Shown: piece after piece, positions 5,096 to 61,685 of the stretch
How positions within the stretch are numbered: the first letter of the stretch is position 1
Layout: each line of letters opens with the position of its first letter
Source of the DNA: Bugula neritina
Lineage: Eukaryota > Bryozoa > Gymnolaemata > Cheilostomatida > Bugulidae
DNA: 64,000 bases
Direction: 5' to 3'
NCBI GenBank assembly: GCA_964035545.1
Contig: OZ037772.1
Span: 10,245,318-10,309,317 of the forward strand
Translations under genes and position numbers: made by a program
The notes under the pieces: model-generated
Told to the model about the DNA's origin: nothing
Seen by the model: only the letters and a program-made list of their open reading frames with translations
Databases searched by the model: none

Positions 5096-8000
5096 TCACT
5101 TTAGCTGATAGAACTTAACTTGTCCATTAAAAGAGTTTACTGGAACTACTAGAATAGAGCCAGTGACGTGGAGATCAGGTATGTGAATGTATTCAACTGT
5201 AGATATCCTGGTTAGTAACTTGCCTGTTGAGATAAAAGACATAATTTTCTTTCTTAAGACTCAAAGATAATATAAAGAGAGTGCAGTTTATTTGTAGCAA
5301 ATAACTATAAATATGAATGAACTCATTTCATCAAATTATAACACATATATTTCATACACTATATGTAATCTACACAGTAACTAACCCGTATGTAATGATA
5401 GTACACAGAGTGTGGTAGGTTCAGTATAATCAGCCACAACTACAAACTCATCTCTATAGCAGGTCACTCCATGAGGTTTAGCCACATCCTTACACTGCCA
5501 GATGATGTCACCTGATGAGGTGTCTACTTTGTATACTAGAGATGAGTGACGCTGAGATATAATAATTGAGTTGTTATCTGCAGCAGACAGATGTACAAGA
5601 GCATCAGTAACTAGAGGACAGGGTAAAGTGTTTACTATCTCCCCATTCAGAGAGTAGAATACTAGAGTTTTATTCAGCCTGTCAGGAATAGTTATTTGGT
5701 TGTTTACGATGGCAAGCTGATTTATCCACTTTGAGTCATTTGCATGAGTCCAACTGGTGATAGTCTTGCCTTCAAGGTCATGTACTCTTACAGTTGAATC
5801 AGAAGACAGAGTATATATCCTATCATTATGTACTGAGATACTCTTCACATGACCACCTTTAAGAGAAATGAATGATTTAGTTACTTTGTTGTTCTCATCT
5901 ATCCTGTCTACACCTCCCTTACACCCAGCATATGTGACACCTTTATAGGTGTGAACAGACCTGCAGTATGGAGAAACTTCAACAGAGTTTATCAGTTCTA
6001 CAGATTTGGGTGGTGGAGGTGAAACAGCCAGTCCTTGTTCAGGAGTTATACTTGCTGTCCTTTCATTGGTCAGCTCAATCTCTATATTTCTTTTCTCTTC
6101 TGTAATAAAATATTGACATGCATGACAAGGTAATATAATATAAAACAGCTGATACATCAGAAAAACTAGCAGATAAGTAAGCAAATTCATGTATATATTT
6201 TGTGCATCACTACACAAGCAGCAGTGCTATAGCAGCACTGCAATGACCATGCACTTTTCATTTTAAAAAATTAATAATATAATTTTGGCTTTTTAGACCA
6301 AATTATTTTTATGGAAATCAACTATTGAAAAAAATTTACTGCAAGCAAAAAAAAAACAAACCAGCAGCTGCGTTCATGTCGACAAATTATTAAAATCAAT
6401 TCTAATGATATTCTATTTAGTGATGTACTACTATATTAAATTAGGTTATGTTCATCAAAAACTTGTATTAGTATTATCCAAGAGCACAGCTATTGCACAA
6501 GTGTGTAAATCTATAGAATAGTTGAGAGAAGTATACAGATTGGGGGAGATGTAGGCCACTCGCCCTCTCAGTGTAAATTAAACACTAAAGATTTCCACTA
6601 ACATCATTTATCTTAAAACATAGTTTAATAGTAGTTTTAGAAAATGTTAGTTCCTTCATCATGTTAAGTTAAAATATTAGATATAATATATTGTTATAAC
6701 ACAGGTCAATAGAGAGAAATGCCAGATGAGGAAAATGTAACAGTTAGCAACATATAGCTTACATACATAATACACCTTCAATCTAAAAGTCAAAATATAT
6801 ACTTCCGTGATGATTTTACTTATAAATACGGCGAGATACAAAATGTCATAAAAATGAAAAACTGTTATAGTTCTATTCAATATCTTTTAAATAATTTTGC
6901 ATGGATAACATATAAAACCAACCTTTGACCTCCACAGATGTTACAAGACCAAATCGTGTCAACTTAGGAATCTCTTCTGTCAACAGTCTATCAATCTCCT
7001 TCTTCATATCACGATATGACTTAATGATGTCAACCTAACAATATAATATATACATACAATGTGACACTGTGTAGCAGGTGTTTGGGCGTTGTCTGCTATT
7101 ATAGAGAATGCTAGTGTTGAGTATGGACAATGATATCAACAACAATGCTGTATTTGACACACACAAAACCATCTAAAAACAGCAGTGCAATGCAAAATAT
7201 TGAAGGATAGAGATTGCAATGCAGATTAGGGAAACAGACTATACTACCAACTATAAATGGGTAAGGTTTACGCCAATAAACTGTACCCTATAAGGAAGCA
7301 CAGATTTCAAAATTGACGCTAATGTGTGGTGGGCTATGCTATTAAATACAGTATCCTAATATAGCATTATACAGCATCTTCTATTATTATACAGTATCAT
7401 ATAGAGTATTATACTGCAGTATACTACGATAGTATACAGTATCCTACGGTATTATAATACAGTGTCATATAGTGTTAGTATACTGGGTACCTTGCAGACC
7501 GACAGCAAATAAAATGGAATACGCTGGTGGCTGGAGGCCACTCTGTAAAACTTAACTTGGGCTGAGCCACAATGACAGCATTTCTCAAATTACTTCATTC
7601 CAAATTCTTATAAATCATTACACAATGAAGTCCCATTAACTACTACAGGCTGCATGTTTTAGCATGTACACAAAGATACATGTATTTAAAAAGTATTTTT
7701 TCCTTTCTAATTTATATATCTGATAGAGCAACATAATTTTATGTTTATGCCTTTGAGGGTGGCATAAATGTTGGACAGTCCTGTGTAATACAGCATGATA
7801 TGTTATAGTACAGTTCCATTACTGCCTCTATTGGTTATTACCTAATTCATTTTCTACTTATGTACTCTTTAGATGTTATTTACAGATAGAGAAACAATGA
7901 ATATAGAATTTATATAAAGACATTGAAATATATATAAACTGCTACAGATCCTAACATCTACTATATATGCTCTGCAACTAACCTCATGACTTTGGTCTAA

Positions 8001-9806
8001 CTTAGCCTCTATTCCTGTTCTGTGATTATACAGCTCACAGTATCTAACCCCAACTTCCTCTACCATGAAATTCACTGCTCGACTTTCAGTCTTTTCTCTC
8101 TTCTCCACCAGTTCTTTCTCCAGTTTGTCATACTTATGTTGAATAGCTGCTATCTAAATACATTCACATTGAATGTTAGACAGGATAGAATAGTTTGAGG
8201 AGTGTCTGAGTGTATAACCATCTTGCATCTACCAAAAAAGTAGCTTATCTCAGATGATTATAAAAAAGTTGTAAACAAACTCTCACAGCTTCTATATGAT
8301 CTTTATAATTATCAAATTTAAAAACCATGTAATAATCACCTGATCATCACGCTGTTTACATAGCAACATCAGCAGCTTCTTGGTTTCAGTTCTAAACTCA
8401 TCAATGTTTGCAGCTATCTGTTTGTAATATCCAGATAAGTTGTCTTCTCTTGTCTTCAACTTTGTGACTTCCACCAGCTGCATTGTTAAATCTTTCAATG
8501 TCAAGAGTGTATGCTGTGATGTACCTAAAGTATATACAAAGTAATGTATAAGCTGTTGTGTACCTGAATCATGTAATATATATAGCAAGTAAACAGAAGA
8601 ATAGACACTTACCATCATCACATACACCAGCTGTAGGTACACATTGAGTACAGAGTAGTTTGAGACAGACTTTACAACCCAAAGTATACTCTACGTCTGC
8701 ATGTGTCTCACACATTCTCTTCTCTAACTTAGCAGCGCGAGCTATATACTCTGTCATATTTATTCTAGAATGTTCTTCGGCCAGATTGTCATGGTCCTAA
8801 GATAAACATATACAAAAGAGTTTGTGGCTTACTAACGATATTACATCTAAGATTGCATATATACATTATAATGGTCCTAATGTCATGATCATATAATGCC
8901 TAAAGTATATATGCAATAGTATACAATTTAATAATATTTAAAGATATATTGTACAATCTATTACAATAAAAGCATGAATGTAAGAAATCAATCTTCAGAG
9001 TTATGTCTCCTTGAACATAACTTTTATTTAATGTATAATAAACTACAGCATGCTGATCGATAAATGTTAGGAGGTAAAGACACAAAACCAATTCATGTAA
9101 GCAAATGAGTGAAAACAAGTGAAACTAAATGAAAGTTTTCGATTGATGAATCAAATCAAATATTGTAAATAATTTGTTGCAAAGCTGATTAAATTATTTC
9201 TCTGCAAAGTATCACCAAAATCTCAAGCTTTCAGTTTCAAAATATCACATATAAAGATATATACACAGATCACACAATAAATAGTGTTAACTTACAATGA
9301 CATGTTTAGCACAGTACAGTTTGGAACAAACTAAACAATACACCAGAGCAGATGTGTTATTCACTCCTGACTTTGTACAGACTTCACAGAGTATAGACTT
9401 ATCTATCTGTTTCATCTGGTCTGCTGTTGGTAACTTATCAGGTGTTGTATTGAACACTTGTCTGTAATATAAATGATGAATTTATTGTTGATAGATCATC
9501 AATTAGTTTTATCTTAGAGAACATTTATCAATCAACGCTCATAGTATAATTTGCTCCGTTCCACCTCGTGATATTATATTAACTGTAACATATACTAGAC
9601 AGTAGACGTAGCGAAAATCACATAGCAAATACTTTGACATAAACTTACCGACATATTCCACATTTAAGAGCATTTAGCCTTCCATAGAATTCATTCAAAC
9701 ACTTGTCACAGTGTGGGTGAGTACAAGGCAGTGCCTTAATTTCCTCTAACTTGAGTTTAGATAAACAAATAGTACATCTCACCATCTGTTGTGGTTTGGA
9801 TGCCAT
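5096..9806 (-). CDS. TRIM-1: RING, B-box 1, B-box 2, coiled-coil, six-blade beta-propeller protein (intact)
   Basis: Eight exons join in frame to 605 codons: 9649-9806, 9296-9461, 8613-8796, 8340-8524, 7983-8153, 6923-7034, 5386-6099, 5096-5223. Start MASKPQQMV. A C3HC4 RING uses C11, C14, C28, H30, C33, C36, C49, C52. B-box 1 has C78, C81, C95, C98, C103, H106. B-box 2 has C137, H140, C149, C152, C157, C160 and probably H174. Residues 171-325 are a predicted coiled coil. Residues ~368-605 form six ~40-residue repeats (for example SVHTYKGVTYAG, SISVHNDRIYTLSS), an NHL- or WD-like propeller ending FYQLK. Known TRIM proteins with this order are E3 ubiquitin ligases whose C-terminal propeller binds the target, often in innate immunity; that role here is inference. 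Splice donors are mostly GTAAGT or GTTAGT. No nonsense codon was found. Confidence 0.88.
7330..7490. repeat. Degenerate intronic minisatellite (TRIM-1 intron 5)
   Basis: Irregular repeats of the type tacagtatcctatagtatta lie between exons 5 and 6. They correspond to the expanded ~20-bp array at 42300-42716 in TRIM-4 and to shorter versions in TRIM-2 (25500-25745), TRIM-3 (35545-35635) and TRIM-5 (58690-58970). Confidence 0.7.
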
Positions 9807-11490: not shown

Positions 11491-11564
11491 GGTTATGCTA
11501 TAGAAATGTTGATATATGAAATAATATCTACAGAACAGCGGAGCTCCTTAATAGAAGCCCTCAC

Positions 11565-12509: not shown

Positions 12510-12649
12510 CTAATTAAATACAGAACACCAGAATATTGTTGTGATTCTAGCAATAATACAGTCGAGTGATAAAAACACTCATTTCACAAGCATGTAACAG
12601 AAACAAAAATTGACATAATAGGCAGGATGATAAACACCGAATACAGTGT

Positions 12650-13443: not shown

Positions 13444-16393
<2,950 letters not shown>

Positions 16394-20807: not shown

Positions 20808-23800
20808 CCTATAATTATGAGCACAATTAATGTAAAATTCTAGGGAATAAATAGTGTAAGTATGCGTATACCCTAAATCCACAGCTGAAAGCTACAAAAC
20901 CAAGATTTAATAGTTTTTTTTATAAACAACCCATACCTAATTGCAGGAAACTGGAATATCATGCAATTAAGGCGGAGTTATTAATTAACTCACTTTTTGT
21001 GTGTCCAATCAGAATAGTGGATCTCTTTTATAGGTTAGTTATTAGCATTCATAGATCTTATTGTACATATAGAACCCAATTATTTGCCAACTACTTCGCA
21101 TGACGTTGACTTTTTCTATCAATACAAGATAATATGAATAATATGACTTTTTTTTACTAGTAAAGCTCCCTCAAAGATCTTTATTATTCTATTGTTATAG
21201 TTTAGTATTACTAACATGTGACCATGCAACTCCATTTAAAGTGAAGCTTGTATATTTTGAGTGAAAGTACATAAATATGTGGCTGATATCGATGTAGCAT
21301 GCAGTGTTGACTATTAAAGACAGAACATGTCTTCTAATATTTCTATAACTATACTCAGATTAAATATAGTCCCTTCTCACTGCTTGAACAGCTCTGACCT
21401 ATACTATTATAAGATAACTCACCACGGTATATACAACTCTAATTACTAGCAACTATAATATTATGCTTTGTACAATGTTTACTATAGGAGAGATGAAAGG
21501 TTACAAGAGGCACACAAAAATTGTATTAAAGCATTAAATTTTATATCATTATATGGTCTGATATATAATATAACATGTCATTTTGATTGTTGTTGCTGCA
21601 TAGAAATCAGTTTGAGTTTATAGAAATGTTTAAAGAGTTTTGGTGAACAGAATGTGATGGTTGACAAAACTTTACCTGAAACTTAGTTTCTTGTGCGAAG
21701 CAGACACTGTTTTGGCTTCATCTCTGTTTTTATTATATAACATTCAAATTCTATATAAAGATAACTTACTGAAAAAAAACTCTCTGTATATTCCAATACT
21801 TAGTAGATAGAAGTCGTTTTTCTTTTTCACCAAATGAAGGGTAGTTCAAGTTTGTAGAAATATCAGCTGCCATATCTTTTGTAGCAAGAGCTTTTAAGTG
21901 AAAGCTTTAATTTCAGCTTATAATATCACTTAATAGTACACTGTATAATAAGCTGGAAAACGTAAGGCGAGTTTAGCTGCACTCAAATTATTAGCTGCTT
22001 TATTCCTCTAGAAAAAAAACTATTCACATGCATTAAGATAGCTTCCACATTGATTTAAAAATCAGAATTTTTGCAAAATACTAAAAACAGTTTATACTAA
22101 ATAAAAATTGTTTGTTTATGAAATACTGACCAATTCCTATATTTGTAACATGCCCAGTAGATGTGTGATATTTTATAGAAGGTGATAACAAAAATATTAC
22201 AGAGTATTCAAAGTAAAACTGGATAAAATTTTGGGATTTTTCTTTATTAGACAGAGAATCAACTGATAATTAAAAAGTAATCCTATCTTTATCAAAGAAG
22301 CTGCTTATTGTAAAAAGATAATGTGCTATTTCTTGTTATACTGATAATAACTGCATATAATAACTAAAAACAGCTTCGCAGCATGTCACATCTCAATGCA
22401 ACACAGCAATCTGTTCATATTTAATAACAAAATCTAATGCATTAGTAATTTCTAAGACAGCAAACATAGACACAATTCATTTGGCTATAGGTAATTGCAA
22501 ATAACAAAAGTTTATATTCAGGATAGGAAATAATAAGAAATTTAAAGAAAATTTTGCAAATTCAAAGTACATAATATATATGTAGCCACCACCATTGAAA
22601 ACTTTATAGCCTATAAAGTTTACAGATTAATTGTAGAAATAGATTGTGATTATAATTGATATAACGCACAATAACCTGGATTTTCCGGCATATAATACAC
22701 CAGTACAAGAACTTGAGTGATAATAATGAATGAAAAATAGTGCTTGTAAAATTTTTGACGGATCACGTGGTTATAGCCTGTCTAGTAGTCTACTGTAAAG
22801 TAGGAAGTTAAACATGCAGGCGTCTATAGTGAAGTGAACTGACTTAGTTGACTGATTAAAGCAGTGACGTACTGGGAAGGTAACTCCTTATGTATGACTA
22901 AACATGTTGTGTTCTACAAAGCATAGCAGAGATGTCTAGTATATACAATATCCGCCATGTTATAATAACATATTACTATGAGACATTAGTATATACACAG
23001 TATTGTAAACAGTTGCTTTATAATTTAATTATTGATTGATAAATATAATCAGGGGAGATAACTGGTAATAATGTGTCCACTACTATATAGGTAACCGACA
23101 ATATTATTATAAGACTATAAAAATTCATAATATTTCTATGCAATAAAATTCAATACAACACAAAATATTATATAAGAAGATGCGATGTAAAACTATTCAA
23201 TGCAAAGCAGCATTAGAAACATGAATTAGAGAAGCACTCGAAACAACATTTACTGACCTTTACTTGAGGATCCCAGTCTATCAGTTCACTTTTAGCTGGT
23301 AGAACTTGACTTGTCCATTAGAAGAGTATACTGGAACTACTAGAGTAGAGCCAGTGATGTGTAGATCAGGTATGTAACTCTTTATAGTAGATATCCTGGT
23401 TAGTAACTTGCCTGTAGAGATAAAATTCATAATGTTCTTTTTTAGGAATCAAAGATAATATTAAAAGAGTGCAGTTTATTTGTAGGAAATATATAAATAT
23501 GAATGAACTCATTTCATCAAATAATAATGCATGCATATCGTACACTTGATATATTCTACACAGTAACTAACCTGTATGTAATGATAGTACACAGAGTGAG
23601 GTAGGTTCAGTATAATCAGCCACAAGTACAAACTCATCTCTATAGCAGGTCACTCCACGAGGTTTAGTCACATCCTTACACTGCCATATGATGTCACCTG
23701 ATGAGGTGTCTACTTTGTATACTAGAGATGAGTCATACTGAGATATAATAACTGAGTTGTTATCTGCAGCAGACAGACGTACAGAAGCATCAGTGAGTAG

Positions 23801-25499
23801 AGGACAGGATAAAGTGTTTACTACCTCCCCATTCAGAGAGTAGAATACTAGAGTTTTTTTAGGCCTATCAGGAATAGCTATCTGATTGTTTATGATGGCA
23901 AGCTGATTCATGCTATCCGACTTCTCTGGATGAGTCCAGCTGGTGATGAACTTTCCTTTAAGGTCATGAACTCTTACAGTAAAGCCAGTAGACAAAGTAT
24001 ATATCCTATCATTATGTACTGAGATATTCGTCACATTGCTATCTTTAATAGAGATGAATGATTTAGTAACTTTGTTGTTCTCATCTATCCTGTCTACACC
24101 TCCATCACACCCAGCATATGTGACACCTTTATAGGTGTGAACAGAATAGCAGAATGGAGTAACTTTAACAGAGTTTATCAGTTCAACAGACTTGAGTGGT
24201 AGAAGTGAGAGAACTAGTCCTTGTTCAGGAGTTATACTTGCTGTCCTTTCATTGGTCAACTCAATCTCTGTATTTCTTTTCTCTTCTGTAATAAAATATT
24301 GACATGCATGACAAGGTAATATAATATAAAACAGCTGATACATCAGAAAAACCAGCAGATATGTTAGCATACATGTATATATTTACACATCACTACACAA
24401 ACAGCAGTGCTATAGCAGCACTGCAATGACCGTGCACTTTTCATTTAAAAAATTATTATTATAATTTTGGCTTTCTGTACCAGATTATTTTTATGGGAAT
24501 CAAAAATGGTAAAAAATTTACTGCAGAAAAAAATCAGCAGCTGCATTCATGTCAACAAATTATTAAAATCAATTCTAATGATATTCTATTTAGTGATATA
24601 CTACTATATTAAATTAGAACTTGTATTAATATTCTCCAAGAGTAAGCACAGCTATTGCACAAGTGTGTAAATCTATAGAATAGTTGAGAGAAGTATACAG
24701 ATTAATGGAGATGTAGGCCACTTCCTCCTCAGTGTAAATTAAACACTAAAGATTTTCAATAACAACATTTATCTTAAAACATAGTTTAATATAGTAGTTT
24801 TAGAAAATATTAGTTCCTTCATCATGTTAAATTAAAATATTATATATAATATATCGTTATAACACAGGTCAATAGAGAGAAATGCCAGATGAGAAAAATG
24901 TAACAGTTAGCGACATATAGCTTACACACATAATACACCTTCAATCTAAAAGTCAAAATATACTTCTGTGATGATTTTACTTTCAAATACGGCGAGATAC
25001 AAAATGTCATAAAAATGAAAAACTCTTATAGTTCTATTCAATATCTTTTAAATAATTTTGCATGGATAACATATAAAACCAACCTTTCACTTCAGCAGAT
25101 GTTACAATATCAAACCGTGCCAACTTAGGAATCTCTTCTGTCAACAGTCTATCAATCTCCTTCTTCATATCACGGAATGACTTGATAATGTCAACCTAAC
25201 AATATTATATATACAGACAATGTGACACTGTGTAGCAGGTGTTTGGAAGTTGTCTGCTATTATAGAGAATGCGAGCGTTGAGTATGGACAATGATATCAA
25301 CAACAATGCTGTATTTGAGACCAAATAAACCATCTAAAAGACAGCAGTGCAATGCAAAATATTGAAGGATAGTGATTGCAATGCAGCATAAGGGAAACAG
25401 ACTTCTACCAACTATAAATGGGTAATTGGTTTACGCCAATAAACTGTACCCTAGCTATAAGGGAGCACAGATTTCAAAATTGACGCTAATGTATAGTGG

Positions 25500-25745
25500 G
25501 CTATGCTATTAAATACAGTATCCCAATATAGCATTATAAAGCATCTTCTAGTATTATACAGTATCATATAGTATTATACTGCAGTATCCTACGATACAGT
25601 ATTTTATAGTAATATTATCATATAGTGTTATGTAGTGTCCCATGGTACTATACAGTATGCTATAATATAAGTATTGTGGTATTATTATATTAGTATTAGT
25701 ATCTTACGGTATTATAATACAGTTTCATATAGTGTTAGTACTGGG
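25500..25745. repeat. Degenerate intronic minisatellite (TRIM-2 intron 5)
   Basis: Irregular copies of the tacagtatcctatagtatta-type repeat found in the same intron of all five TRIM genes. Confidence 0.65.
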
Positions 25746-27774
25746 TGTCAAACCCTTTCAGGCGGAGAAATGAAATACCCTGGTCAAGAAAGGCCACTGT
25801 GTAAAATTTAGCTTGAGCTGGGGCCACAGTGTCAGTATTTTATTAATTACTTCATTTCAAATTCTTATAAATCATTACGCAATGAAGTCCCATTAACTAC
25901 TACAGGCTGCATGTTTTAGCATGTACACAAAAAGACATTTAAAAGGTGTTTTTTTCACTCTAATTGATATATCTGAGCAAAATAATTTCATTTTATGCCT
26001 TTGAGAGCAACATAAATGCTGGAGAGCCCTGTGTTATACAGCATGCTATGTTATAGTACAGTCCCATTATTGGTCATTACCTGATAAATTTTCTACTTAT
26101 ATAATCTTTAGATGCTATTTACAGATAGAGAAAAACAATAAATATAGAAATAATATAAAACATCAAAATATATAAAGCTGTTACAGATCCTAACATATAC
26201 TATATATGCTCTGCAACTAACCTCATGACTTTGGTCTAACTTAGCCTCTATTCCTTCTCTGTGATTATACAGCTCACAGTATCTAACCCCCACTTCTTCT
26301 ACCATGCATGAAGTTCACTGCTTGACTCTCAGTCTTTTCTCTTTTCTCCACCAGTTCTTTCTCCAGTTTGTCATACTTCTGTTGAATAGCTGCTATCTAA
26401 ACACATTCACATTAAATGTTAGACAAGCTAAAAAAAGTTGGGGAGTGTATAACCATCTTGCGTCTGCCAAAAAAGTAACTTATCTCAGACGGTTATACAG
26501 AAAACTATAAATTAACTCTCACAGTTTCAATATGATCTTTAAAATTATCAAATTTAAAAACCATGCAATAATCACCTGATCATCACGCTGTTTTCATAGC
26601 AACATCAGCAGCTTCTTGGTTTCAGTTTGAAACTCATCAATGTTTGCAGCTATCTGTTTGTAATAAGCAGATAAGTCGTCTTCTCTTGTCTTCAACTTTG
26701 TGACTTCCACCAGCTGCATTGTTAAATCTTTCAATGTCAAGAGTGTGTGCTGTGATGTACCTGAAGTAATATATACAAAGTAATGTATAAGCTGTTGTGT
26801 ACCTGAATCATGTAATATATATAGCAAGTAAACAGAAGAATAGACACTTACCATCGTCACATACACCAGCTGTAGGTACACACTGAGTACAGAGTAGTTT
26901 GAGACAGACTTTACAACCCAAAGTATACTCTACGTCTGCATGTGTCTCACACATTCTCTTCTCTAACTTAGCAGCACGAGTTTTATACTCTGTCATATCA
27001 ATTCTAGAGTGTTCTTCAGACACAACGTCATGATCCTACAACAAAGTTATATTATAGAGTAGTACTTAGTTTATAATTGATGACATTGTATATAAAAAAG
27101 CATGTATATGTATCCTAATGGCCATGTCATTATGCTATAATGTAGAAAATATACACCCAACATTGCATAACTCATTCAAAAAATATATAAAGCCAAATTA
27201 CGCAGCATATAATATGTTATAGTGCCACGAATGTTATAATTAGTTAGTCTTGAGAGTTGTATGTACACTTGATCATGACTTTATCCAACGTATAACAACT
27301 CACATTATGATTTTTGCTGATCAATACATTCCAAAATTTAAATTTGTGTGAACATATGAATGAAAACGAATGAATAATTTCATTTACCAAACTAAAAAGT
27401 TATTTTATCAAATATTGCAGAGTTTTTTTTGTGAAACCAGCAAATTGTTTGTCAGTAAAACATAATAAAAACCCAGAGGTTTTGGACTAATATTATTTTG
27501 AAACATAGCCAGTTGCTACGGCTATCCAGTTTTACAACACATAAGGGAAACATGCAAAAAGAAATTAAAGAGTGCTGACTTACAATGACATGTTTAACAC
27601 AGTAAAGTTTAGAACAAACTAAACAATACATCAGAGCAGGTGTATTATTCACTCCTGACTTTGTACAGACTTCACAGAGTATAGACTTATCTATCTTTTT
27701 CATCTGGTCTGCTGTTGGTAACTTATCAGGTGTTGTATCGAACACTTGCCTGTAATATAAATGGTGAATACGTG

Positions 27775-30035
27775 CAACATTATCTGCTGTAGGCTATAAG
27801 TTTTGTTACGATACAATGATACAACGAGGTAGAGTTAAATACCAACTGTTGCTAGTTTTATTATTGCTAAATTAAAATCCTGCTTTTCTTAAAATACCTG
27901 CCCTTGTGTTTACATGCAGTTTTCTTTTAATTAGACCCATGTAAGACTCACTACACATGACTAGGGCAACACTAAAACCTAGACCATGGTTGCTTCTGTG
28001 TGTTGCAACTATAGCAGCTAAAAATAGCATGCAATGAAATCCTAAAATTAATTTTTAATAATAATTCTAAAATGCCACCAGCTTATAACCTGTTATAAGT
28101 TTTATCAACAAGCAATCAAAAATTTAAAACTAATCAAAAGTTGTTTCTAGAACTAACTTGCTTGCGTCTAAAGGTTTGAAAAAATGTTCTCTAGAATGCA
28201 ACTGAGATATATTTGAATATTTCAATATAATATTACGGCATAAACAATGTGTCATATAGATTCTGTAAGAAGAGGATGTTGTAATGCTGGCTCTTTCCAT
28301 ATCAACAGTACGCAGTAACTTTTGATTATGTATAGGGAGAACAATGTTTCCATCTATAAGCCACTGTATAGAACAACTATATAGGTCTGTAGACTGAACA
28401 AACATTTCTCAAAGTCTTTTGAAAATAGTTTTTACTAGCTCCTATTTTACACATCTCAAAATATCAAATGACATGAAACCTTTAGTCATATTGGTGCCGT
28501 GATATTCTATGGATGATGTAAGCTTGCATTAACCACGGCATAGCAAAATGGAATTGGTGCGAGGTGCTCTGATTAAACACATTTAGCACTCAGTCATAGC
28601 TTTGCATAACATTTATTATTGTGACAAATTATTCTGATAAAATCTATCTGACTCTATACACAATTACTGAACCAAGGCTTTATTGTACAAGTTATTCACA
28701 AAAATAATAGAGTAAAAAATCAAAGATCTCCATTGTACAAATAACAATAGAACAATTGTGTGAAAATCTCAGTGCGTTATTAATGTTGTTTTTCTCTATT
28801 GTCACAACTTTCTATAACTAGAAAAGCTAAGCTATTTCCAAATAGCATTTAGGTTGCTCAATAACAAAGTACGTTTAGTTAGGCATTACATCTCATTGAT
28901 ATGCTCCATTGATCTCTAATATATTACATTGGAGAACTTGAACTGACTAACTTTTGATTTAAACGTAGTCATTGACAACGTGAATACATTCTAATACTTA
29001 ATTGACTTAAGGGTTTAGTAACAAAGCTTTCTGTCAACATTCAGTCAATCAATTTTTGATATACAAGTATCTGTATCTAACCCTACACTCTGGTTATAGT
29101 ACCATGTCATAGTGACATATAATATCTCTATTGACTTCACAGTAAAGCAAACTATAGGTCTCTGTTTGTATAGGATATATTACAACTCATATCAAGTAGG
29201 GTTTGGAACCTATTTATAGCACCACCTGACTGTAAGATATATTATATTACATATGCAGACAACATATAATAAATCATGTGGCAGTACAAACATTTATTAT
29301 TTGGATTCTGCTCTGATAAAGTATATTTTACTCAAACCATAGCTACTGGGTTGTAGGGTTTGGTTATGCAACCAAAAATTAAAGGAATAGCATAATGAAA
29401 TAAAAGAGTTATATTGTATGTAACAACAGATCTATTGGGTGCCGTTTCTTTGTGCTTCTTGTGTATTGTATTATGACCACTTCAAAAAACTAGAAAAGCT
29501 TGACAAATTGTCAAAAGAATAAGAAAACAAAGCATATTTCGTTTCCAATCTAAATCATTGAGTGCACCCAACAAGGTGGTAGGTGTTGAAAAACTGCCTA
29601 AAAACTGCAACCGCATTAGAACAATGAATTTAATTTTAAACCTAATCTACTTAATGATGACCGTATTGCATTGTGAATAATTCAACTTACAAAAACTTGG
29701 AACAAAAAAAACTAAGACCAGCTTATTAGTGCCGATCATGACTTTAACCTTAGCATAAGTAAAATATCAAGACTTTATTAGACATTTTGATCAATGAGGT
29801 AGTTATCAGTATGAAACACTAAAATCACTGAAACGCTTCTCTAATGCTCACATTAAAAAAATGCACAATACTGCATTTAAGTAAAACACCTGATTTTATT
29901 ATATATACTGCATATTAAAATTGTTATAATAAAACATCTTATAATACAAATTTGTCAACATCTACTTATTTTTCTTGGTAATAATAATATATAAATCAGG
30001 ATATATGCACTGCATAGCATGAACCATGAGGTTAT
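27775..30035. other. ~2.25-kb insertion in TRIM-2 intron 1
   Basis: Sequence similarity to the other TRIM copies stops just after exon 2 and resumes just before exon 1, leaving ~2.25 kb unique to this copy. I see no terminal inverted repeat, poly-A tail or recognisable transposon gene. A minus-strand frame of 91 codons at 28130-28405 is unrecognised. The insertion may itself have disturbed splicing of TRIM-2. Confidence 0.6.
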
Positions 30036-30266
30036 TGATCAACATTATTATGAAATATATGACATTATGTAACATATTATACTATATATTATGATATTAT
30101 TCACCCACCGACATATTCCACATTTAAGAGCATTCAGCCTGCCATAGAATTCATTCAAACACTTGTCACAGTGTGGGTGAGTACAAGGTAGTGCCTTACA
30201 TTCCTCTAACTTGAGTTGAGATAAACAAATAGTACATCTCACCATTTGTTGTGGTTTAGAAGCCAT

Positions 30267-40038: not shown

Positions 40039-40125
40039 TCACTTTAGCTGGTAGAACTTGACTGATTCATTAGAAGAGTATACTGGAACTACTAGAGTAG
40101 AGCCAGTGAGGTGTAGATCAGGTAT

Positions 40126-43100
40126 CTATCTGTTTTCAGTAGATATCCTGGTTAGTAACTTGCCTATTGAGATAAAATACATATTGCTCTGTTTTAAGAA
40201 TCAAAGATAATAAAAAGAGAGTGCAGTTTATTTGCAGCAAATAACTATAAATGTGAATGAACTAATTTCCTCAAATTATAATGCATGCATATCATACACT
40301 ATATGTATTCTACACAGTAACTAACCTGTATGTAATGATAGTACACAGAGTGTGGTAGGTTTAGTTTCATCAGCCACAAGTACAAACTCATCTCTATAGC
40401 AAGTCACTCCATAAGGTCTAGCCACATCCTTACACTGCCAGATGATGTCACCTGATGAGATGTCTACTTTATATACTAGAGATGAGTAACGCTGAGATAT
40501 AATAATTGTGTTTTTTTCTGCAGCAGACAGAAATACAGGAGTATCAGTAAGTAGAGGACAAGGTAAAGTGTTTACTATCTCCCCATTCAGAGAGTAGAAT
40601 ACTAGAGTTTTATTCAGCCTGTCAGGAATAGCTATTTGATTGTTTATGATGGCAAACTGATTTGTCCACCTTGTTTTTTTATCTGCATGAGTCCAACCGG
40701 TGATAGTCTTGCCTTCAAGGTCATGAACTCTCACAGTTGAATCAGAAGACAGAGTATATATCCTATCATTATGTACTGAGATACTCCACACAAAACTACC
40801 CTTAATAGATATGAGTGATTTAGTTACTTTGTTGTTCTCATCTATTCTGTCTACACCTCCTCTACACCCAGCATATGTGACACCTTTATAGGTGTGCACG
40901 GACTGGCAGTATGGAAAAACTTTAGCAGAGTTTATCAGTTCTACTGACTTGGGTAGTGGAGGTGAGACAACCAGTCCTTGTTCAGGAGTTATACTTGCTG
41001 TCCTTTTATTGGTCAGCTCAATCTCTATATCTCTTTTCTCTTCTGTAATAAAATATTGACATGCATGACAAGGTAATATAATATAAAACAGCTGATACAT
41101 CAGAAAAACTAGCAGATATGTAAACACACATGTATATTTTTTTGCATCACTACACCAACAGCAGTGCTATAGCAGCACTGCAATGACCATGCACTTTTCA
41201 TTTAAAAAATTATTATTATAATTTTAGCCTTTTGGACCAGATTATTTTTATGGCAATCAATTATTGAAAAAAATTTACTGAAAAAATAACAGCAGCTGCA
41301 TTCACGTCAACAAAATATTAAAATCAGTTCTAATGATATTCTATTTAGTGATATACTACTATATTTAATTAGATTATGTTCACCAAAAACTTGTATTAGT
41401 ATTCTCCAAGAGTAAGCACAGCTATATATTGCACAAGTGTGTAAATCTATAGAATCGTTGAGAGAAGCTTACAGGTTGGGGGAGATATAGGCCACTTCCC
41501 TTTTTCAGTGTAAAATACAAACTAAAGATTCCCACTATCATCATTTACCTTATACCTTGGTTTAATAGGATATTGCAGGGGTGTAGTGTGCCAGTAATAC
41601 AAACCCAGTTTTAGAAAATAATAGTGCCTTCATCATGTTAAATTAAAATATTATTTATAATATATTTTTATAACACAGATCAATAGAGTGAAATACCAGA
41701 TGATGAAAATGCAACAGTTGGCAACATAGCTATACCTTACATACATATATACCTCAAATTCAAAAGTCAAAATATACTTACTTGATTATGTTACTTAAAT
41801 GCAGCTATAGATAAAATATTTCAGAAAGATAAATAGGGTTATTAAGCTATTCATTATCTTGTTTTAAATAGTTTTGCATATTAATAACATAAAACTGACC
41901 TTTAACATCTATAAAACTGACCTTTGACCTCCACAGATGTTACAAGATCAAAATGTGCCAACTTAGGAATCTCTTCTGTCAACAGTCTATCAATCTCCTT
42001 CTTCATATCACGATATGACTTGATGATGTCAACCTAACAATATTACATATACACACAATGCGACACTGTGTAGCAGGTGTTATAGAGTTGTCTGCTATTA
42101 TAGAGAATGTCAGTGTTGAGTATGAACAATGAGATCAACAACAATGCTGTATTTGAGACCAACAAAACCATCCAAAAGCAGCATTGCAATGCAAAAGATT
42201 ACAAAATCGAGAGTGAAAAGCACAATTTAGAACAAGAAGCATTTACAAACGAATGGGCAAACTTTACACTAACTATCTGCAGTGCCCTACGTGGATCATA
42301 CAGTTTGCTATAGTATTATACAGTTCCCTACAGTATTATACAGTACCCTATAGTATTATACAGTGTTATATAGTATTATACAGTATCTTATAGTATTATC
42401 CAGTGTCCTACAGTATTATACAGTTTCCTATAGTATATTATACAGTATCCTATAGTATTATACAGTGTCCTATAGTATTATACAGTATCCTATAATATTA
42501 TACAGTGTCCTATAGTATTATACAGTTTCCTATAGTATTATACAGTATCCTATAGTATTATACAGTGTCCTATAGTATTATACAGTGTCCTATAGTATTA
42601 TACAGTGTTCTATAGTATTATACAGTGTTCTATAGTATTATACAGTGTCCTATAGTATTATACAGTGTTATATAGTGTCATACAGTATGCTGTAGTATTA
42701 TGCAGTATTCTATATAGTATCGAGAATTCTTTTCATTAGATTATATATATTTATATTATTTAAATGATCTATAGATGTTATATAAAATATCAAACTGCTA
42801 CAGATACACACACCATAACATCTACTATCAATCCATACTCTGTAGCTAACCTCATGACTTTGGTCTAAATTAGCCTCTATTCCTTCTCTGTGGTTATACA
42901 GCTCACGGTATCTAACCCCCACTTCCTCTACCATGAAGTTCACTGCTTGACTCTCAGTCTTTTCTCTCTTCTCCACCAGTTCTTTCTCCAGTTTGTCATA
43001 CTTCTGTTGAATAGCTGCTATCTAAATACAGTCACATAAAATATAGGAGAAGATAGTTTGGTTTGAGGAGTGTCTAAGTGTATATGGTCATCTTACATTT

Positions 43101-44680
43101 CCCAAAAAAGTAACTTATCTCAGCTGGTTATACAGAGAACTATAAACAAACTCTCACAGCTTCTATATGATCTTTATAATTATCAAATTTAAAAACCACG
43201 TAATAATCACCTGATCATCACGCTGTTTCCATAGCAACATCAGCAGCTTCTTGGTTTCAGTTCGAAACTCATCAATGTTTGCAGCTATCTGTTTGTAATA
43301 ACCAGATAACTTGTCTTCTCTTGTCTTCAACTTTGTAACTTCCACCAGCTGCATTGTTAAATCTTTCAACGTCAAGAGTGTATGCTGTGATGTACCTAAA
43401 GTAATATATACAAAGTAATGTATAAGCTGTTGTGTACCTGAATCATGTAATACATATAGCAAGTAAACAGAAGAATAGACACTTACCATCATCACATACA
43501 CCAGCTGTAGGTACACACTGAGTACAGAGTAGTTTGAGACAGACTTTACAACCCAAAGTATACTCTACGTCTGCATGTGTCTCACACATTCTCTTCTCTA
43601 ACTTAGCAGCACGAGCTATATACTCTGTCATATTTATTCTAGAATGTTCTTCGGCCAGATTGTCATGGTCCTAAGATAAACATATACAAAAGAGTTTGTG
43701 GCTTACTAACGATATTACATCTAAGATTGCATATATACATTATAATGGTCCTAATGTCATGATCATATAATGCCTAAAGTATATATGCAATAGTATACAA
43801 TTTAATAATATTTAAAGATATATTGTACAATCTATTACAATAAAAGCATGAATGTAAGAAATCAATCTTCAGAGTTATGTCTTCTTGAACATAACTTTTA
43901 TTTAATGTATAATAAACTACAGCATGCTGATCGATAAATGTTAGGAGGTAAAGACGCAAAACCAATTCATGTGAGCAAATGAGTGAAAACAAGTGAAACT
44001 AAATGAATGTTTTCGATTGATGAATCAAATCAAATATTGTAAATAATTTGTTGCAAAGCTGATTAAATTATTTCTCTGCAAAGTATCACCAAAATGTCAA
44101 GCTTTCAGTTTCAAAATATCACATATAAAGATATACACACAGTAAACACGAAAAATAGTGTTAACTTACAATGACATGTTTAGCACAGTACAGTTTGGAA
44201 CAAACTAAACAATACATCAGAGCAGGTGTATCATTCACTCCTGACTTTGTACAGACTTCACAGAGTATAGACTTATCTATCTGTTTCATCTGGTCTGCTG
44301 TTGGCAACTTATCAGGTGTAGTATTGAACACTTGTCTGTAACATAAATGATGAATTTATTGTTGATAGATCATCAATTAGTTTTATCTTAGAGAACATTT
44401 ATCAATCAACGCTCATAGTATAATTCGCTCTGTTCCACCTTGTGATATTATATTAACTGTAATATATACTAGACACCAGACGTAGCGAAAATCACATAGC
44501 AAATACTTTGACATAAACTTACCGACATATTCCACATTTAAGAGCATTTAGCCTTCCATAGAATTCATTCAAACACTTGTCACAGTGTGGGTGAGTACAA
44601 GGCAGTGCCTTAATTTCCTCTAACTTGAGTTTAGATAAACAAATAGTACATCTCACCATCTGTTGTGGTTTGGATGCCAT
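40126..44680 (-). CDS. TRIM-4: TRIM-propeller gene with a C-terminal truncation
   Basis: Exons 44523-44680, 44170-44335, 43487-43670, 43211-43395, 42851-43021, 41922-42033, 40326-41042 and a last exon starting at 40163. RING, both B-boxes and coiled coil are intact, and the propeller exon has one extra codon (717 nt). In the last exon TAG at 40126-40128 ends the protein after KLLTRISTENR, ~30 residues short; the ancestral stop is at 40039-40041 and the sequence between stays open. About 576 residues result. The lost part is the closing strands of the sixth blade, which in propellers normally lock the ring, so folding may suffer. Either a very recent pseudogene or a variant; the other exons show no damage. 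Confidence 0.83.
42300..42716. repeat. 20-bp minisatellite, about 20 units (TRIM-4 intron 5)
   Basis: Near-perfect tandem units tacagtgtcctatagtatta. The same intron of TRIM-3 has 4-5 units, and TRIM-1, -2 and -5 have degenerate versions, so the array expanded in this copy. Confidence 0.95.
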
Positions 44681-48562: not shown

Positions 48563-51498
<2,936 letters not shown>

Positions 51499-52679: not shown

Positions 52680-53011
52680 TACGCTACACTACACTACACT
52701 GCACTGCACTGCGCTGCGCTGCGCTGCACTGCACTGCACTGCACTGCACTGCACTGCACTGCACTGCACTGCACTGCACTGCACTACACTACACTACACT
52801 ACACTGCACTGCACTGCGCTGCGCTGCGCTGCACTGCACTGCACTGCACTGCACTGTACTGTACTGTATTATATATACTACACTATACTATACTATATAC
52901 TGTACTATACTATATACTATACTATACTATACTATACTATATACTATATACTATATACTATACTATACTATACTATACTATATACTATATACTATATTAT
53001 ACTATACTATG
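52680..53011. repeat. Pentanucleotide satellite, short copy
   Basis: CACTA/CACTG/CGCTG units followed by ACTAT-type units. It matches the start of the array at 17558-18840 but lacks the long CACTA block. Its right end is cut by a segment containing TTGGTCACCTTTCACCAC. Confidence 0.95.
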
Positions 53012-56160: not shown

Positions 56161-59100
56161 TCACTTCAACTGATAGAATTTGACTTGTCCATTAGAATAC
56201 CATACTGGAACTACTAGAGTTGAGCCAGTGATGTGGAGATCAGGTATGTATAAAATGTTTTCAGTTATAAATATCCTGGTTAGTAACTTGCCTGTTGAGA
56301 TAAAATACAAAATGTTCTTTTTTTAGGAATCAAAGATAATATAAAGAGAGTGCAGTTTATTTGCAGCAAATAACTATAAATATGAATGAACTCATTTCAT
56401 CATATTATAACACGTATATTTCATACACTATATGTATTCTACACAGTAACTAACCTGTATGTAATGATAGTACACAGAATGAGGTATGTTTAGTAACATC
56501 AGCCACAACTACAAACTCATCTCTATAGCAGGTCACTCCACGAGGTTTAGTCACATCCTTACACTGCCAGATGATGTCACCTGATGAGGTGTCTACTTTG
56601 TATACTAGAGATGAGTTATACTGAGATATAATAATTGAGTTGTTATCTGCAGCAGACAGACGTACAATAGTATCAGTGAATAGAGGACAAGGTAGAGTGT
56701 TTACTACCTCCCCATTCAGAGAGTAGAATACTAGAGTTTTATTCAGCCTGTCAGGAATAGCTATCTGATTGTTTATAATGGCAAGCTGATATATCCACAA
56801 GAGTTTATTATCTGTATGAGTCCAGCTGTTAATGGACCTCCCTTCAAGGTCATGAACTCTTACAGTTGAATCAGAAGACAGAGTATATATCCTATCATTA
56901 TGTACTGAGATACTCCTCACACTGCTACCTTTAATAGAGATGAATGATTTAGTAACTCTGTTGTTCTCATCTATCCTGTCTACACCTTCATCACACCCAG
57001 CATATGTGACACCTTTATAGGTGTGAACAGACCTGCAGTATGGAGAAACTTCAACAGCTTTTATCAGTTCTACAGGCCTGGGTGGTGGAGGTGAGAGAAC
57101 CAGTCCTTGTTCAGGAGTTATACTTGCTGTCCTTTCATTGGTCAGCTCAATCTCTGTATTTCTTTGCTCCTCTGTGATAAAAATATTGACGTGCATGACA
57201 TGGTAATATAATATAAAACAGCTGATACATCAGAAAAGCTAGCAGATAAGTGCATAGCTATAGCACACTGCAATGATCATGCACTTTTCATTTAAAAAAT
57301 TATTATTATAATTTTGGCTTTTTAAACCAGATTATTTTTATGGAAAGCTACTATTGAAAAAAGTTTACTGCGGAAAAAAATCAGCAGCTGCATTCATGTC
57401 AACAAATTATTAAAATCAATTCTAATGATATTCTATTTTAGTAATATACTACTATATTAAATTAGGTTATGTTCACCAAAAACTTGTACTAGTATTCTCC
57501 AAGAGTAAGCACAGCTATTGCACAAATGTGTAAATCTATAGAATAGTTGAGAGAAGCTTACAGATGGGGGATATGTAGGCCACTCCCTCCTCAGTGTAAA
57601 TTAAACACTAAAGATTCCCACTACCATTATTTACCTTACAACTTGGTTTAATAGTATATTCTAGGGGTGTAGTGTACGTGGTAATAATACAAACTCAGTT
57701 TTGGATAATAATATAGTGCCTTCATCATGGTAAATTAAAAGGTTATGTATGATGTATTCTCATAAATAATATTTTAATATTATTTATAAAAATACATTAG
57801 TAAAATACCAGATGATGAAAATGTAACAGTTTGAAACATAGCTATAGCTTACATACATATATACCCCAAATTCAAGTCAAAATATGATTACTTGATTATG
57901 TTATTTATATACAGGTAGATAAAACATGTCATAAAAAGGAACATTGTTTATAGTTCTATTCAATATCTTGTTTTAAAGTTTTTTACATGGAGAACATATA
58001 AAACCAACCTTTCACTTCCGCAGATGTTACAAGACCAAACCGTGTCAACTTAGGAATCTCTTCTGTCAGCAGTCTATCAATCTCCTTCTTCATATCACGA
58101 TATGACTTGATGATGTCAACCTAACAATATTATAATACAGACAATGTGACACTGTGTAGCAGGTGTTATAGAGTTGTCTGCTGTTAGAGAATGCCAGTGT
58201 TGAGTATGAACAATGAGATCAACAACAATGCTATATTTGACACACACAAAACCATCTAAAAAGCAGCAGTGCAATGCAAAATGTTGAAGAACAGAGAGTG
58301 CAATGCGGTATTAGAGAAACAGACATCTACAGACTAAGCCTTGGGCTGCAAAGTAGCAAAGGTGTCGACTGTAGCGTCAGTGATGCGTGATAAATAAAGC
58401 TTTCATTTTTAAATCGCACTCGCTTTCAATAGAACGCAATTTACTGGAATGTAGCACTAAATTAAAGAAATTGGGCTCGCTGAATAGCTACCAGCCAATT
58501 AGGTGACGATGGCAGAGACGATTCGCACTTGTTGCTCAGCATTTTCAACGCAAGTTCGAACGTTTTCTCAACACCTTTGCTACTTGTGATTTTAATTTTC
58601 GCGTGCGAAAATACGCACTGTGTGGCCCTAGGCTAATGGGTGTAGTTTATGCTAATAAACGGTACTCTTAAGGAACACAGATTTCAAATTTGACAGTGTG
58701 CTATATGGTATTAAATACAGTATCCTAATATAGTAATATAAAGTATGCTATAGCATTGTAAACTGTCCTATAGTAATATACAGCGTCATATTATGGTGTT
58801 ATACTAAAGCATCCTGCATACGTATTACACAGTATTCTATGGCATTATACAGTATTTCATAGTATTATACATGCAGTATTCTAGAGTACTATACAGTATT
58901 ATATATTATAGGTATCATGGTATTATTGTATTATACAGTATCCTACGGTATTATAATACAGTGTCATATCGTGTTAGTACCAGGTGTCAAACATTTTCAG
59001 ACTGAGGGCAACTGAAATAGAGTACTCTGATGACGGAGGCCACTCTGTAAAATTTAGCTTGAGCTGGGGTCATATTGACAGTATTTTCAAATTACTTCAT

Positions 59101-61685
59101 TTAAAATTTTTATAAATGTTAAACAATGAAGTCCCATTAACTCCTACAGGCTGCATGTTTTAGCACGTACACAAACAACATTTAAAAGGTAACTTTTCCA
59201 TTCTAATTCATATATATCTGAGCAAAACTAATTTATGTTTATGTCTTTGAGGGTGACATAAATATTGAACATGCAACCCTACGTTATACAGCATGATATG
59301 TTATAGTATAGTTTCATTACTGCCTTTACTGGTTATTACCTGATTCACCTCCTGTTCACACATTACCGTATAGGACATTGTAACGTAAAATCGCAGCCAT
59401 TATGACAAATGTCTGAGCTTCCTGCATGGTGCTACAGTACGTTAGGGTCAAGCACTGCTTGATTCAAACTAGTTGCGGCGGGTTCCTATTGGACAGAAAG
59501 ATTTTTGCGTCAGCTCATTGAATAAAATTGTCCAATGAGGTGTCTTATTATTTACCTAATAGCCGACTTAGTAAATTTCAACCGGGACACATTAAAGATA
59601 TCTGATATTATACATTACGACGTACGATACGGCAATGTGTGAACAGGGGGCCAGTTTCTACTTATGTAGTCTTTCGATGGTATTTATACAGATAAAGAGG
59701 CAGTGAATAAAGAAATTATATAAAGACATTAAAATATATAAACTGTTACAGATTTTAACATCTATGCTCTACGACTAACCTCATGACTTTGGTCTAATTT
59801 AGCCTCTATTTCTTCTCTGTGATGGTAAAGCTCACGGTATCTAAACCCCACCTCCTCTACCATGAAGTTCACTGCTTGACTCTCAGTCTTTTCTCTCTTC
59901 TCCACCAGTTCTTTCTCCAGTTTGTCATACTTCTGTTGAATAGCTGCTATCTAAATACAGTCACATTAAATGTTAGACAAGTTAGAAAAATTTGAGGAGT
60001 GTCTGAGTGTACAATCATCTTGCATCTACCAAAAAAATTATTTATCTCAGGTGGTTATACAGAAAACTATAAATAAACTCTCACAGTTTCTATATGATCT
60101 TTATAATTATCAAATTTAAAAACCATGCAATAATCACCTGATCATCACGCTGTTTACATAGCAACATCAGCAGCTTCTTGGTTTCAGTTCGAAACTCATC
60201 AATGTTTGCAGCTATCTGTTTGTAATAACCAGATAAGTCGTCTTCTCTTGTCTTCAACTTTGTGACTTCCACCAGCTGCATTGTTAAATCTTTCAATGTC
60301 AAGAGTGTATGCTGTGATGTACCTAAAGTAATATATACAAAGTAATGTATAAGCTGTTGTGTACCTGAATCATGTAATATATATAGCAAGTAAACAGAAG
60401 AATAGACACTTACCATCATCACATACACCAGCTGTAGGTACACACTGAGTACAGAGTAGTTTGAGACAGACTTTACAACCTAAAGTATACTCTACGTCTG
60501 CATGTGTCTCACACATTCTCTTCTCTAACTTAGCAGCACGAGCTTTGTATTCTGTCATATTAATTCTAGAATGTTCTTCAGACAGATTGTCATGATCCTA
60601 TTATAAATTATATATAATATGGAGTATATAGTTTGTCATTTACTATTGATATTATATATACAACATAATGTATACATTTCAATGGTTAAAATGTCATGAT
60701 GACATAGTAATGTATAAAACATATATGCAATGTTACATAATATTTTATGTAAAATAATATATACAAATATATTGTACCTACAATATATTTGTATATATAT
60801 AAAACCATATTGTACCTACAATATTATAATAACTACTATGGCAGACGTGGTAATGTATTGAAGGAATCTGTAGAGTTATGTCCCTTTGATTATAATGTCA
60901 TCCCACTTTATATTAAATTGCACCAGAGTACTTTTTCGTGAAATAAAAACCATCAACTGACTTTTCAGCAAAATTACAAGCAAAATCAAAAGCCAAATTA
61001 TTTTGCTACAAGACTGATGCTTACTCAAATTCAGCCAGTTATCAAATTATATGGCGATACAAGCAAGAGGCATGGACAAACACATAAACTAAGCATGGTT
61101 AAATTTACTTACAATGATATGCTTAGCACAAAATAGTTTGGCACAAACTAAACAATACATCAGAGCAGGTGTGTTATTTACTCCTGACTTTGTACAGACT
61201 GCACAGAGTACAGACTTATCTATCTGTTTCATCTGGTCTGCTGTTGGTAACTTATCAGGTGTTGTATTGAACACTTGCCTGTAACGTAAATAGATTAATT
61301 GTTGATACATCATTGACTAGCTATATAGTATATAAAGTAATTATATATAAAGGTTCATAGTGTAATGCTATCTCTTCTATAACCTAGTATAGCAATACAG
61401 GCACTACATATAGCATAAACACATAATTATAGTAAATAACATCATAATATTTATATTATTATGAACATTATTATAAAATATATAATAATATGTAACATAT
61501 TATTAAGTTATCATATTATTCACCTACCGACATATTCCACATTTAAGAGCTTTTAGCCTTCCATAGAATTCATTCAAACACCTGTCACAGTGTGGGTGAG
61601 TACAAGGCAATGCCTTACATTCTTCTAACTTGAGTTTAGATAAACAAATAGTACATCTTACCATTGGTTGTGGTTTAGATGCCAT
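56161..61685 (-). CDS. TRIM-5: RING, B-box, coiled-coil, propeller protein (intact)
   Basis: Exons 61528-61685, 61113-61278, 60414-60597, 60138-60322, 59780-59950, 58009-58120, 56455-57171 and 56161-56291 join in frame to 607 codons. The RING is MVRCTICLSKLKLEECKA with the later CTHPHCDRC and CGIC ligands; B-boxes and coiled coil match the paralogues. The propeller exon carries one extra codon near the third blade, as in TRIM-4, and the last exon ends FYQLK. The exon 1 donor is GTAGGT. Intron 5 is long (58121-59779) because it holds two MITE-like insertions and a degenerate minisatellite. Unlike TRIM-1 to -4, the frame upstream of the propeller exon is broken by one base. Confidence 0.87.
58338..58633. 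mobile_element. MITE-like insertion 1 in TRIM-5 intron 5 (TAA target duplication)
   Basis: Ends are inverted: left GCCTTGGGCTGC, right GGCCCTAGGC. A further inverted pair lies inside: AAGTAGCAAAGGTGT at ~58351-58365 against ACACCTTTGCTACTT near 58572-58586. It is flanked by TAA on both sides (58335-58337 and 58634-58636). A 3-bp TWA duplication with GC-rich ends suits non-autonomous PIF/Harbinger elements. The four other TRIM introns lack it, so insertion followed the duplications. No coding capacity. Confidence 0.7.
58690..58970. repeat. Degenerate intronic minisatellite (TRIM-5 intron 5)
   Basis: Irregular tatagtattatacagtat-type repeats homologous to the arrays in intron 5 of the other TRIM genes. 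Confidence 0.65.
59348..59650. mobile_element. MITE-like insertion 2 in TRIM-5 intron 5
   Basis: ~300 bp with inverted ends: left CCTCCTGTTCACACATTACC, right (reverse complement) CCCCCTGTTCACACATTGCC, continuing GTAT in both. The empty site in TRIM-1 reads attcattttctactta. The interior has no gene. No long target duplication is clear, so the superfamily is uncertain (hAT-like is possible). Confidence 0.7.

Follow-up and report, generated by a model that had tools for sequence, protein, structure and literature searches.

Why should neighbouring TRIM genes keep a common N-terminal body and differ in regularly spaced residues of their C-terminal propeller? This question is raised by a stretch of 64,000 nucleotides of the Bugula neritina genome (C8:10245318-10309317 in a genome of 216 Mb and 295 contigs; hereafter the window), which carries five tandem minus-strand TRIM genes, T1 to T5, with eight exons each. 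The splice sites were modelled in T1, where GT and AG were found at the exon ends, and T2 to T5 could be aligned to the T1 exons. In T1, a C3HC4 RING is followed by two B-box-like fingers, a likely coiled coil and a propeller, of which exon 7 encodes blades 1 to 5 and exon 8 blade 6; the number of six blades was counted from the sequence. All eight C3HC4 ligands were seen by eye in the translations of T1 to T5 and of a copy on contig C6 (L073). A sequence-only reading had described paired variable residues in every blade and proposed a diversified recognition surface with a constant ligase output. The pattern was confirmed and proved stronger than described: the residues quoted at positions 372, 409, 411, 495 and 535 were correct in the five-copy alignment, and the interpretation is partly supported by the analysis reported here. 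We consider it probable that the five genes belong to a large tandem family, in which a conserved RING/B-box/coiled-coil body carries an NHL-like propeller under positive diversifying selection at ligand-facing positions, and that this family forms a germline recognition repertoire.

Diversifying selection in the propeller exon

Site-wise selection was estimated on 30 close copies from contig C8 with a FUBAR-like script of our own, which combines an MG94-type codon model, a FastTree topology and an empirical Bayes grid. The set of copies excludes L038 and L046 (both partial and from one place), L039-L042 (found at the places of L034-L037), the frame-broken L044, L045 and L050 and the more divergent L047-L049. 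Among the 237 codons of exon 7, 18 had a posterior above 0.9 for beta>alpha (363, 364, 370, 372, 386, 387, 409, 411, 425, 445, 449, 451, 493, 495, 509, 510, 535 and 552 in T1 numbering), codons 533 and 550 were just under this threshold (0.85 and 0.89), and purifying selection exceeded 0.9 at 42 codons. Each of the 30 copies has its own set of residues at the 18 sites. The alternating pairs were recovered with i/i+2 spacing in blades 1, 2 and 4, and in blade 5 at 535 next to the sub-threshold 533, while the pair of blade 3 lies at 449/451 in C8 and not at 450/452, as had been read. Four blades have a second fast site, overlooked in the sequence-only reading, at a distance of about 16 residues (386/387, 425, 509/510 and 550/552, of which 550 is the one at 0.89); in blade 3 none was found in the 30 copies. 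For exon 8, 25 copies were tested (L012 was omitted, and L028, L031, L032 and L035 had no exon 8 by the pattern used). The pair 575/577 proposed for blade 6 was borne out with posteriors of 0.98 and 0.99, though exon 8 is noisy, since 15 of its 41 codons exceeded 0.8 when the exon-8 tree was used and 18 when that of exon 7 was used.

A second set, comprising 20 of the 51 propeller-exon rows of contig C6, gave 15 columns above 0.9, of which 13 are present in T1 (370, 372, 386, 405, 408, 411, 450, 493, 494, 509, 533, 535 and 550). Here, codon 450 of blade 3 had a posterior of 0.997 and codon 451 a weaker one of 0.86. The two sets share seven sites (Fisher p 5.9e-6), at a threshold of 0.8 the number of common sites was 13 of the 20 from C6, and the posteriors correlated weakly (Spearman 0.22, 235 sites). 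Circularity was avoided because the sites from one clade were used to measure the other. At the C6-defined sites, the window copies showed a nonsynonymous divergence (dN) of 0.677 and a synonymous divergence (dS) of 0.157, i.e. a dN/dS of 4.3, against a dN of 0.080 and a dS of 0.143 in the rest of the exon; for all 30 C8 copies, the dN/dS at these sites was 2.7. Conversely, the C6 copies had a dN of 0.385 and a dS of 0.121 at the C8-defined sites (dN/dS 3.2; rest 0.089 and 0.131), and five of the 16 rows from contig C3 had 0.616 and 0.130 at the C6-defined sites (rest 0.062 and 0.110). The 13 C6-defined sites hold 140.3 of the 527.6 nonsynonymous differences among the five window copies, where 100,000 random draws gave a mean of 29.0 and a maximum of 96.5. 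Nonsynonymous change at these sites also exceeds the Jukes-Cantor (JC) divergence of the introns flanking exon 7, which is 0.140 for intron 6 and 0.111 for intron 7 in the window copies. The pattern of diversifying selection and its repetition in three expansions are thereby a computed result.

The N-terminal exons behave differently. For exons 1-4 of the five window copies the dS was 0.154 and the dN 0.031, for exons 5-6 of four copies 0.146 and 0.050, and for exon 7 of all five 0.143 and 0.104, so that the RING-to-coiled-coil exons have a dN/dS of 0.20-0.34 at the same dS as the propeller exon. These exons had been called close to identical; they are indeed similar, but since their dS equals that of the propeller exon, this similarity reflects purifying selection on average and not recent copying. 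A mixture allowing beta>alpha improved on one with beta<=alpha by a doubled log-likelihood difference (2dlnL) of 84.5 in C8, 49.6 in C6 and 9.2 in the N-terminal exons of 11 copies. In the same nine copies, 10 of 237 propeller codons and two of 325 N-terminal codons exceeded 0.9. The site test was also applied to simulated data (12 homogeneous and six mixed replicates), and no site exceeded 0.9 in any of the 12 homogeneous ones. With separate trees per segment, 20 sites were called, including 14 of the original 18.

Fold and placement of the fast sites

The product of T1 exon 7 was modelled with AlphaFold2 from 52 sequences. The model shows five blades, blade 6 being absent, with a predicted local distance difference test score (pLDDT) of 82.8 and a predicted template modelling score (pTM) of 0.77; residues 1-24 are under 50. 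A Foldseek search returned 1407 matches at E<=0.001 and, among the matches listed, the top rows were mostly propellers. Sorted by Z, the first eight rows were NHL domains of Brat, Thin, Mei-P26, TRIM3 and LIN41 (20.8-19.6), and a profile search of PDB sequences found Brat (E 9e-6), Thin (6e-4) and TRIM3 (9e-4). The modelled fold therefore appears NHL-like, with these domains as the closest by Z. We write NHL-like and do not call it an NHL member because the Pfam NHL profile did not recognise it: the Pfam scan of T1 gave no NHL match at E<=1, and the NHL repeat was found in three of the 52 members at E<=0.1 (best 0.02), compared with 24 NHL matches of the ordinary kind elsewhere in the genome. 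The WD40 repeat model was not among the 25 families listed of the 37 Pfam families that matched the 52 members. For T1, weak propeller models came up, all below their cut-offs, and no WD40 match passed; nor did the T1 scan give a B30.2/SPRY match, the fold being a propeller instead, or a NACHT match, the body being RING/B-box.

Faces were assigned by strand order, the d-a and b-c loops forming one propeller face. Of the 16 C8 sites within modelled blades, 13 lie in these loops (Fisher 8e-6), and all 16 do when the first two residues of strand a are included (7.7e-9); for the 13 C6 sites the corresponding numbers are 10 (2.7e-4) and 13 (3e-7). None of these 16 and 13 sites lies in an a-b or c-d loop. 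The mean posterior differed between top and bottom loops in C8 (p 0.016). By strand order on the model, the fast sites are thus on one face of the propeller. Since they show a nonsynonymous excess over synonymous and intron change, and since they map to one face of the predicted fold and are not scattered through it, neither of the two results that would speak against the earlier interpretation was obtained, and its proposal of a conserved, ligase-like body with a surface that has diversified is supported.

Family size and exchange between copies

With an identity of 71% or higher, the RING exon is matched at least 31 times in the genome: 30 of these matches are on contig C8, where they cluster near 5.4-5.8 and 10.1-10.36 Mb, and the other one is on C7. 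When the coordinates are compared by eye, propeller exons on C3, C4, C5 and C6 have weaker RING matches upstream of them, and each of the six N-terminal exons was matched in the C6 copy L073. For the propeller exon there are at least 151 matches, some rows being pieces of one broken gene; the number of places is a lower bound, as 150 of 195 candidates were scored. The 20 C6 copies are 42-46% identical to T1 exon 7. By eye, the C6 and C3 copies are nearer to each other than to C8 in the alignment, which argues for separate, unequally distant expansions. Of the 7995 candidates scored in a homologue search with the full-length T1 protein, none reached E<=0.001.

Distant copies have exchanged their 3′ gene ends at least once. 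Between L024 and L025, which are separated by 4.6 Mb, the identity is 99% in intron 7 and exon 8, 98% beyond and 91% in exon 7, and their upstream 900 bases are barely alignable. Within the window, intron 3 (e.g. 8612-8525) is near-identical in T1 to T5 (mean p 0.016), whereas for introns 1-2 the difference averages about 0.3 and is 0.02-0.07 among T1, T3 and T4, which is a sign of local conversion. Covariation of selected residues within blades (mean z 0.72, 24 pairs) versus between blades (0.18, 129 pairs) was too weak to indicate blade modules.

Alternative explanations

RNA may be the ligand, since RNA-binding members are found among the TRIM NHL domains, to which the propeller is similar. 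The copies could then be diversified RNA readers that each bind a different RNA, be it foreign, from a transposon or an mRNA of the animal itself, and that have the ligase or the body as effector, an explanation that we regard as unlikely. It has in its favour that NHL domains come first both by Z and by profile and that, in the accessible parts of the papers cited, the NHL domains of Brat and LIN41 bind RNA on their upper surface (PMC5908797, PMC9634614, PMC9070667). Six Brat contacts named there (N800, Y829, R847, R875, F916 and N933; PMC13245067, PMC9070667) were mapped, out of 15 important residues that PMC9070667 counts; in the profile alignment N800, Y829, R875, F916 and N933 fall on 425, 450, 494, 533 and 550. 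Five of the six thus coincide with sites selected in either expansion when both clades are pooled (p 1.8e-5), and four with C6 sites alone (p 3e-5). On the other hand, Brat, LIN41, Mei-P26 and Thin are described as having a positively charged top patch (PMC9070667), while the net charge at the 18 face sites averages +0.6 over the 30 copies, with a propeller mean of -2.4. The face residues of these copies span aromatic, charged and small types and their net charge ranges from -5 to +5, which favours varied protein ligands over a common RNA-type surface.

Least probable of all is that the propeller merely drifts under relaxed constraint after duplication, the copies being redundant or decaying. 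Pseudogene features in T2 and T4 and the frame breaks in L044, L045 and L050 would fit this idea, but relaxation should not raise dN above the neutral rate, and the dN of 0.68 at the C6-defined sites exceeds both a dS of 0.16 and a flanking-intron JC divergence of 0.11-0.14. Moreover, in the window copies the residues between the pairs have a dN of 0.09-0.10 and the rest of the exon a dN/dS of 0.56, so they are still constrained. Hardly more plausible is that divergent paralogues supplied the differences by gene conversion or templated exchange, with no selection on the sites. The mosaic introns and the shared 3′ ends of L024 and L025 speak for it, as do multi-base codon differences, which make up 44% at selected sites versus 19% elsewhere. 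Conversion, however, carries synonymous and nonsynonymous changes together, whereas at the selected codons the nonsynonymous ones alone are raised, and most of the sites survive per-segment trees. Conversion may well help to shuffle the repertoire.

Several observations weigh against the reading that we prefer, i.e. an NHL-like propeller diversified by selection on its ligand-facing side. As to selection, exchange among copies violates the single-tree assumption and codons 363, 387, 425 and 445 dropped out with per-segment trees; in five of the six mixed simulations no neutral site was called, but our own implementation of the test called 58 of 117 neutral sites in the sixth. Just seven sites are common to the 18 of C8 and the 13 of C6, and with 11 copies three of the 325 N-terminal codons also exceeded 0.9. 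As to placement, the model is limited to exon 7, the ends of some strands were placed manually, the beginning of strand a was assigned to the top by choice, and in C6 the mean posterior did not differ between top and bottom loops (p 0.32). The fold assignment is affected by Foldseek's own order, which puts the WD40 protein TLE1 first and the Thin NHL domain at rank 5, and by the nidogen propeller, which comes next by Z with 19.4, within 1.5 of Brat. The alignment to Brat is weak, with an i-Evalue of 0.004 for its best stretch; R847 falls on the non-selected codon 466, and a single contact of the six coincides with C8 sites alone (p 0.33). The T1 RING scores 20.3 bits in Pfam, below the cut-off of 27.3, and the B-box 19.1 bits, below 24.1, even if the Cys/His pattern of two B-boxes is visible. 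Finally, two of the five window copies, T2 and T4, are broken.

Gene models and surroundings

The gene models are collected in Table 1. T2 is interrupted by an in-frame TGA at codon 225 and has, in exon 5, a duplication of 4 bp. Exons 4-6 of T1 look helical and charged by eye.

Table 1. Positions of the TRIM copies and their parts in the window
Feature	Position	Strand	State or basis
TRIM copy T1	5096..9806	-	open; 605-aa translation, splice sites
T1 exons	9806-9649, 9461-9296, 8796-8613, 8524-8340, 8153-7983, 7034-6923, 6099-5386, 5223-5096	-	
T1 exon 1, RING C-x2-C-x13-C-x-H-x2-C-x2-C-x12-C-x2-C	9649..9806	-	from translation
T1 exons 2-3, two B-box-like zinc fingers	8613..9461	-	from translation
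T1 exons 4-6, coiled-coil region	6923..8524	-	assigned by eye
T1 exon 7, propeller blades 1-5	5386..6099	-	site test on 30 copies, fold model
T1 exon 8, sixth blade, fast sites 575/577	5096..5223	-	
TRIM copy T2	23286..30266	-	broken; propeller exon open
T2 exon 7 (propeller)	23572..24285	-	
TRIM copy T3	33373..37585	-	open; stop two codons past the end of T1
T3 exon 7 (propeller)	33660..34373	-	
TRIM copy T4	40039..44680	-	exons 1-7 open; in-frame TAG within exon 8 (blade 6)
T4 exon 7 (propeller)	40326..41042	-	
TRIM copy T5	56161..61685	-	open
T5 exon 7 (propeller)	56455..57171	-	

About 2.5 kb downstream of T1 and T2 lie exon-8-like pieces (2601-2531 and 20752-20683). Both are frame-broken, so an alternative blade 6 or terminal exon is unsupported and was rejected. 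A segmental duplication of about 10 kb joins 7952-17881 and 42816-53010, with pieces about 91-96% identical, and includes the 5′ parts of T1 and T4 with neighbouring sequence. Upstream of T1, at 11500-12520, there are exons that resemble by eye a C2-domain (synaptotagmin-like) gene. Elsewhere, a 28-base unit forms a tandem array at 12649-13449 (self-match offsets of 28), an open frame of unknown identity with MAAPCGKR is duplicated at 15818-16474 and 50875-51579, and a long low-complexity stretch at 17500-19037 has three open plus-strand frames with LHYTT-type repeats. Both ends of the window (1-1463 and 62075-63699) carry a repeat with 90-93% identity.

Comparison with known systems

The TRIM-NHL proteins (Brat, Mei-P26, Thin, TRIM2/3, TRIM71/LIN41) share with the present family the RING/B-box/coiled-coil body, of which the B-boxes and the coiled coil are putative here, followed by a propeller, the top places by Z, weak but significant profile matches and contacts at corresponding positions, whereas the Pfam NHL model barely recognises the propellers described here. 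As far as the accessible parts of the sources go, which applies to all papers cited in this section, there are four human TRIM-NHL genes (PMC9634614) and few fish TRIM genes outside the B30.2 class (PMC3137616), in contrast to the at least 151 propeller-exon matches, with diversifying selection, found here.

In the fungal HNWD genes (het-d, het-e, het-r), selected codon pairs 7/9 and 25/27 surround a fixed residue in each repeat, they lie in the top-face d-a loop and b-c turn, and the genes exchange sequence (PMC1805685, PMC2873952). Paired selected positions, the top face and exchange among genes are thus shared; in the present family the pair that comes first has i/i+2 spacing, with the second site about 16 residues further on. 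Unlike HNWD, a family of 10 in a fungus with a NACHT cell-death output and near-identical WD40 repeats, the present family has a TRIM body and degenerate blades. The top-face hotspot rule R1-2, R1, D-1 was derived for WD40 blades (PMC3419727). By eye, blade 2 fits it, with 409 as R1-2, 411 as R1, 425 as D-1 and V410-K411-S412-I413 as the four-residue motif, although no Pfam WD40 match lies above the cut-off here.

The finTRIM and TRIM5alpha proteins resemble the present family as expanded TRIMs with a selected C-terminal recognition domain, which is B30.2 there and a propeller here. Primate TRIM5alpha is said to be under positive selection in its B30.2 recognition domain, and one further study reportedly describes tandemly expanded TRIMs with positive selection in the recognition domain. 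Fish finTRIM, btr and hltr show tandem expansion and positive selection in the C-terminal B30.2 domain (PMC3137616). On this comparison, the family appears to work like HNWD and the fish B30.2 TRIMs while belonging to neither, being NHL-like by its predicted fold.

Meaning of the diversified propeller

By strand order, the selected positions sit at the start of strand a (i and i+2), in the b-c turn and in the d-a loop, and through this variable face each copy may bind a different ligand. The bound ligand, or the TRIM protein itself, would then be marked with ubiquitin. A conserved body with a variable face most simply suggests a group of ligases that take many different inputs and share a single output. 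Most likely the ligands would be fast-changing foreign or allo-determinants, in which case the family would be a germline-encoded recognition repertoire; we infer both the identity of the ligands and the immune role. More tentatively, there may be a repertoire of perhaps more than 100 TRIM ligases with NHL-like propellers as reading heads, each blade having two to four fast positions and each of the 30 copies its own residue combination. In at least one pair of copies, the 3′ ends with blade 6 would have been swapped across megabases from cluster to cluster, and the system could be an animal counterpart of fungal HNWD that reads foreign proteins or RNAs and answers with ubiquitin.

Diversified TRIM recognition is already known in the form of B30.2 in vertebrates, and diversified propeller faces are known as WD40 in fungal NLRs. 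Among the papers listed, as judged by titles and the start of abstracts and with most subscription papers outside the search, we found none in which a TRIM body is combined with an NHL-like propeller whose face has diversified. Such a family would have reached this solution once more, apparently by convergence, and its named residues can be tested for specificity.

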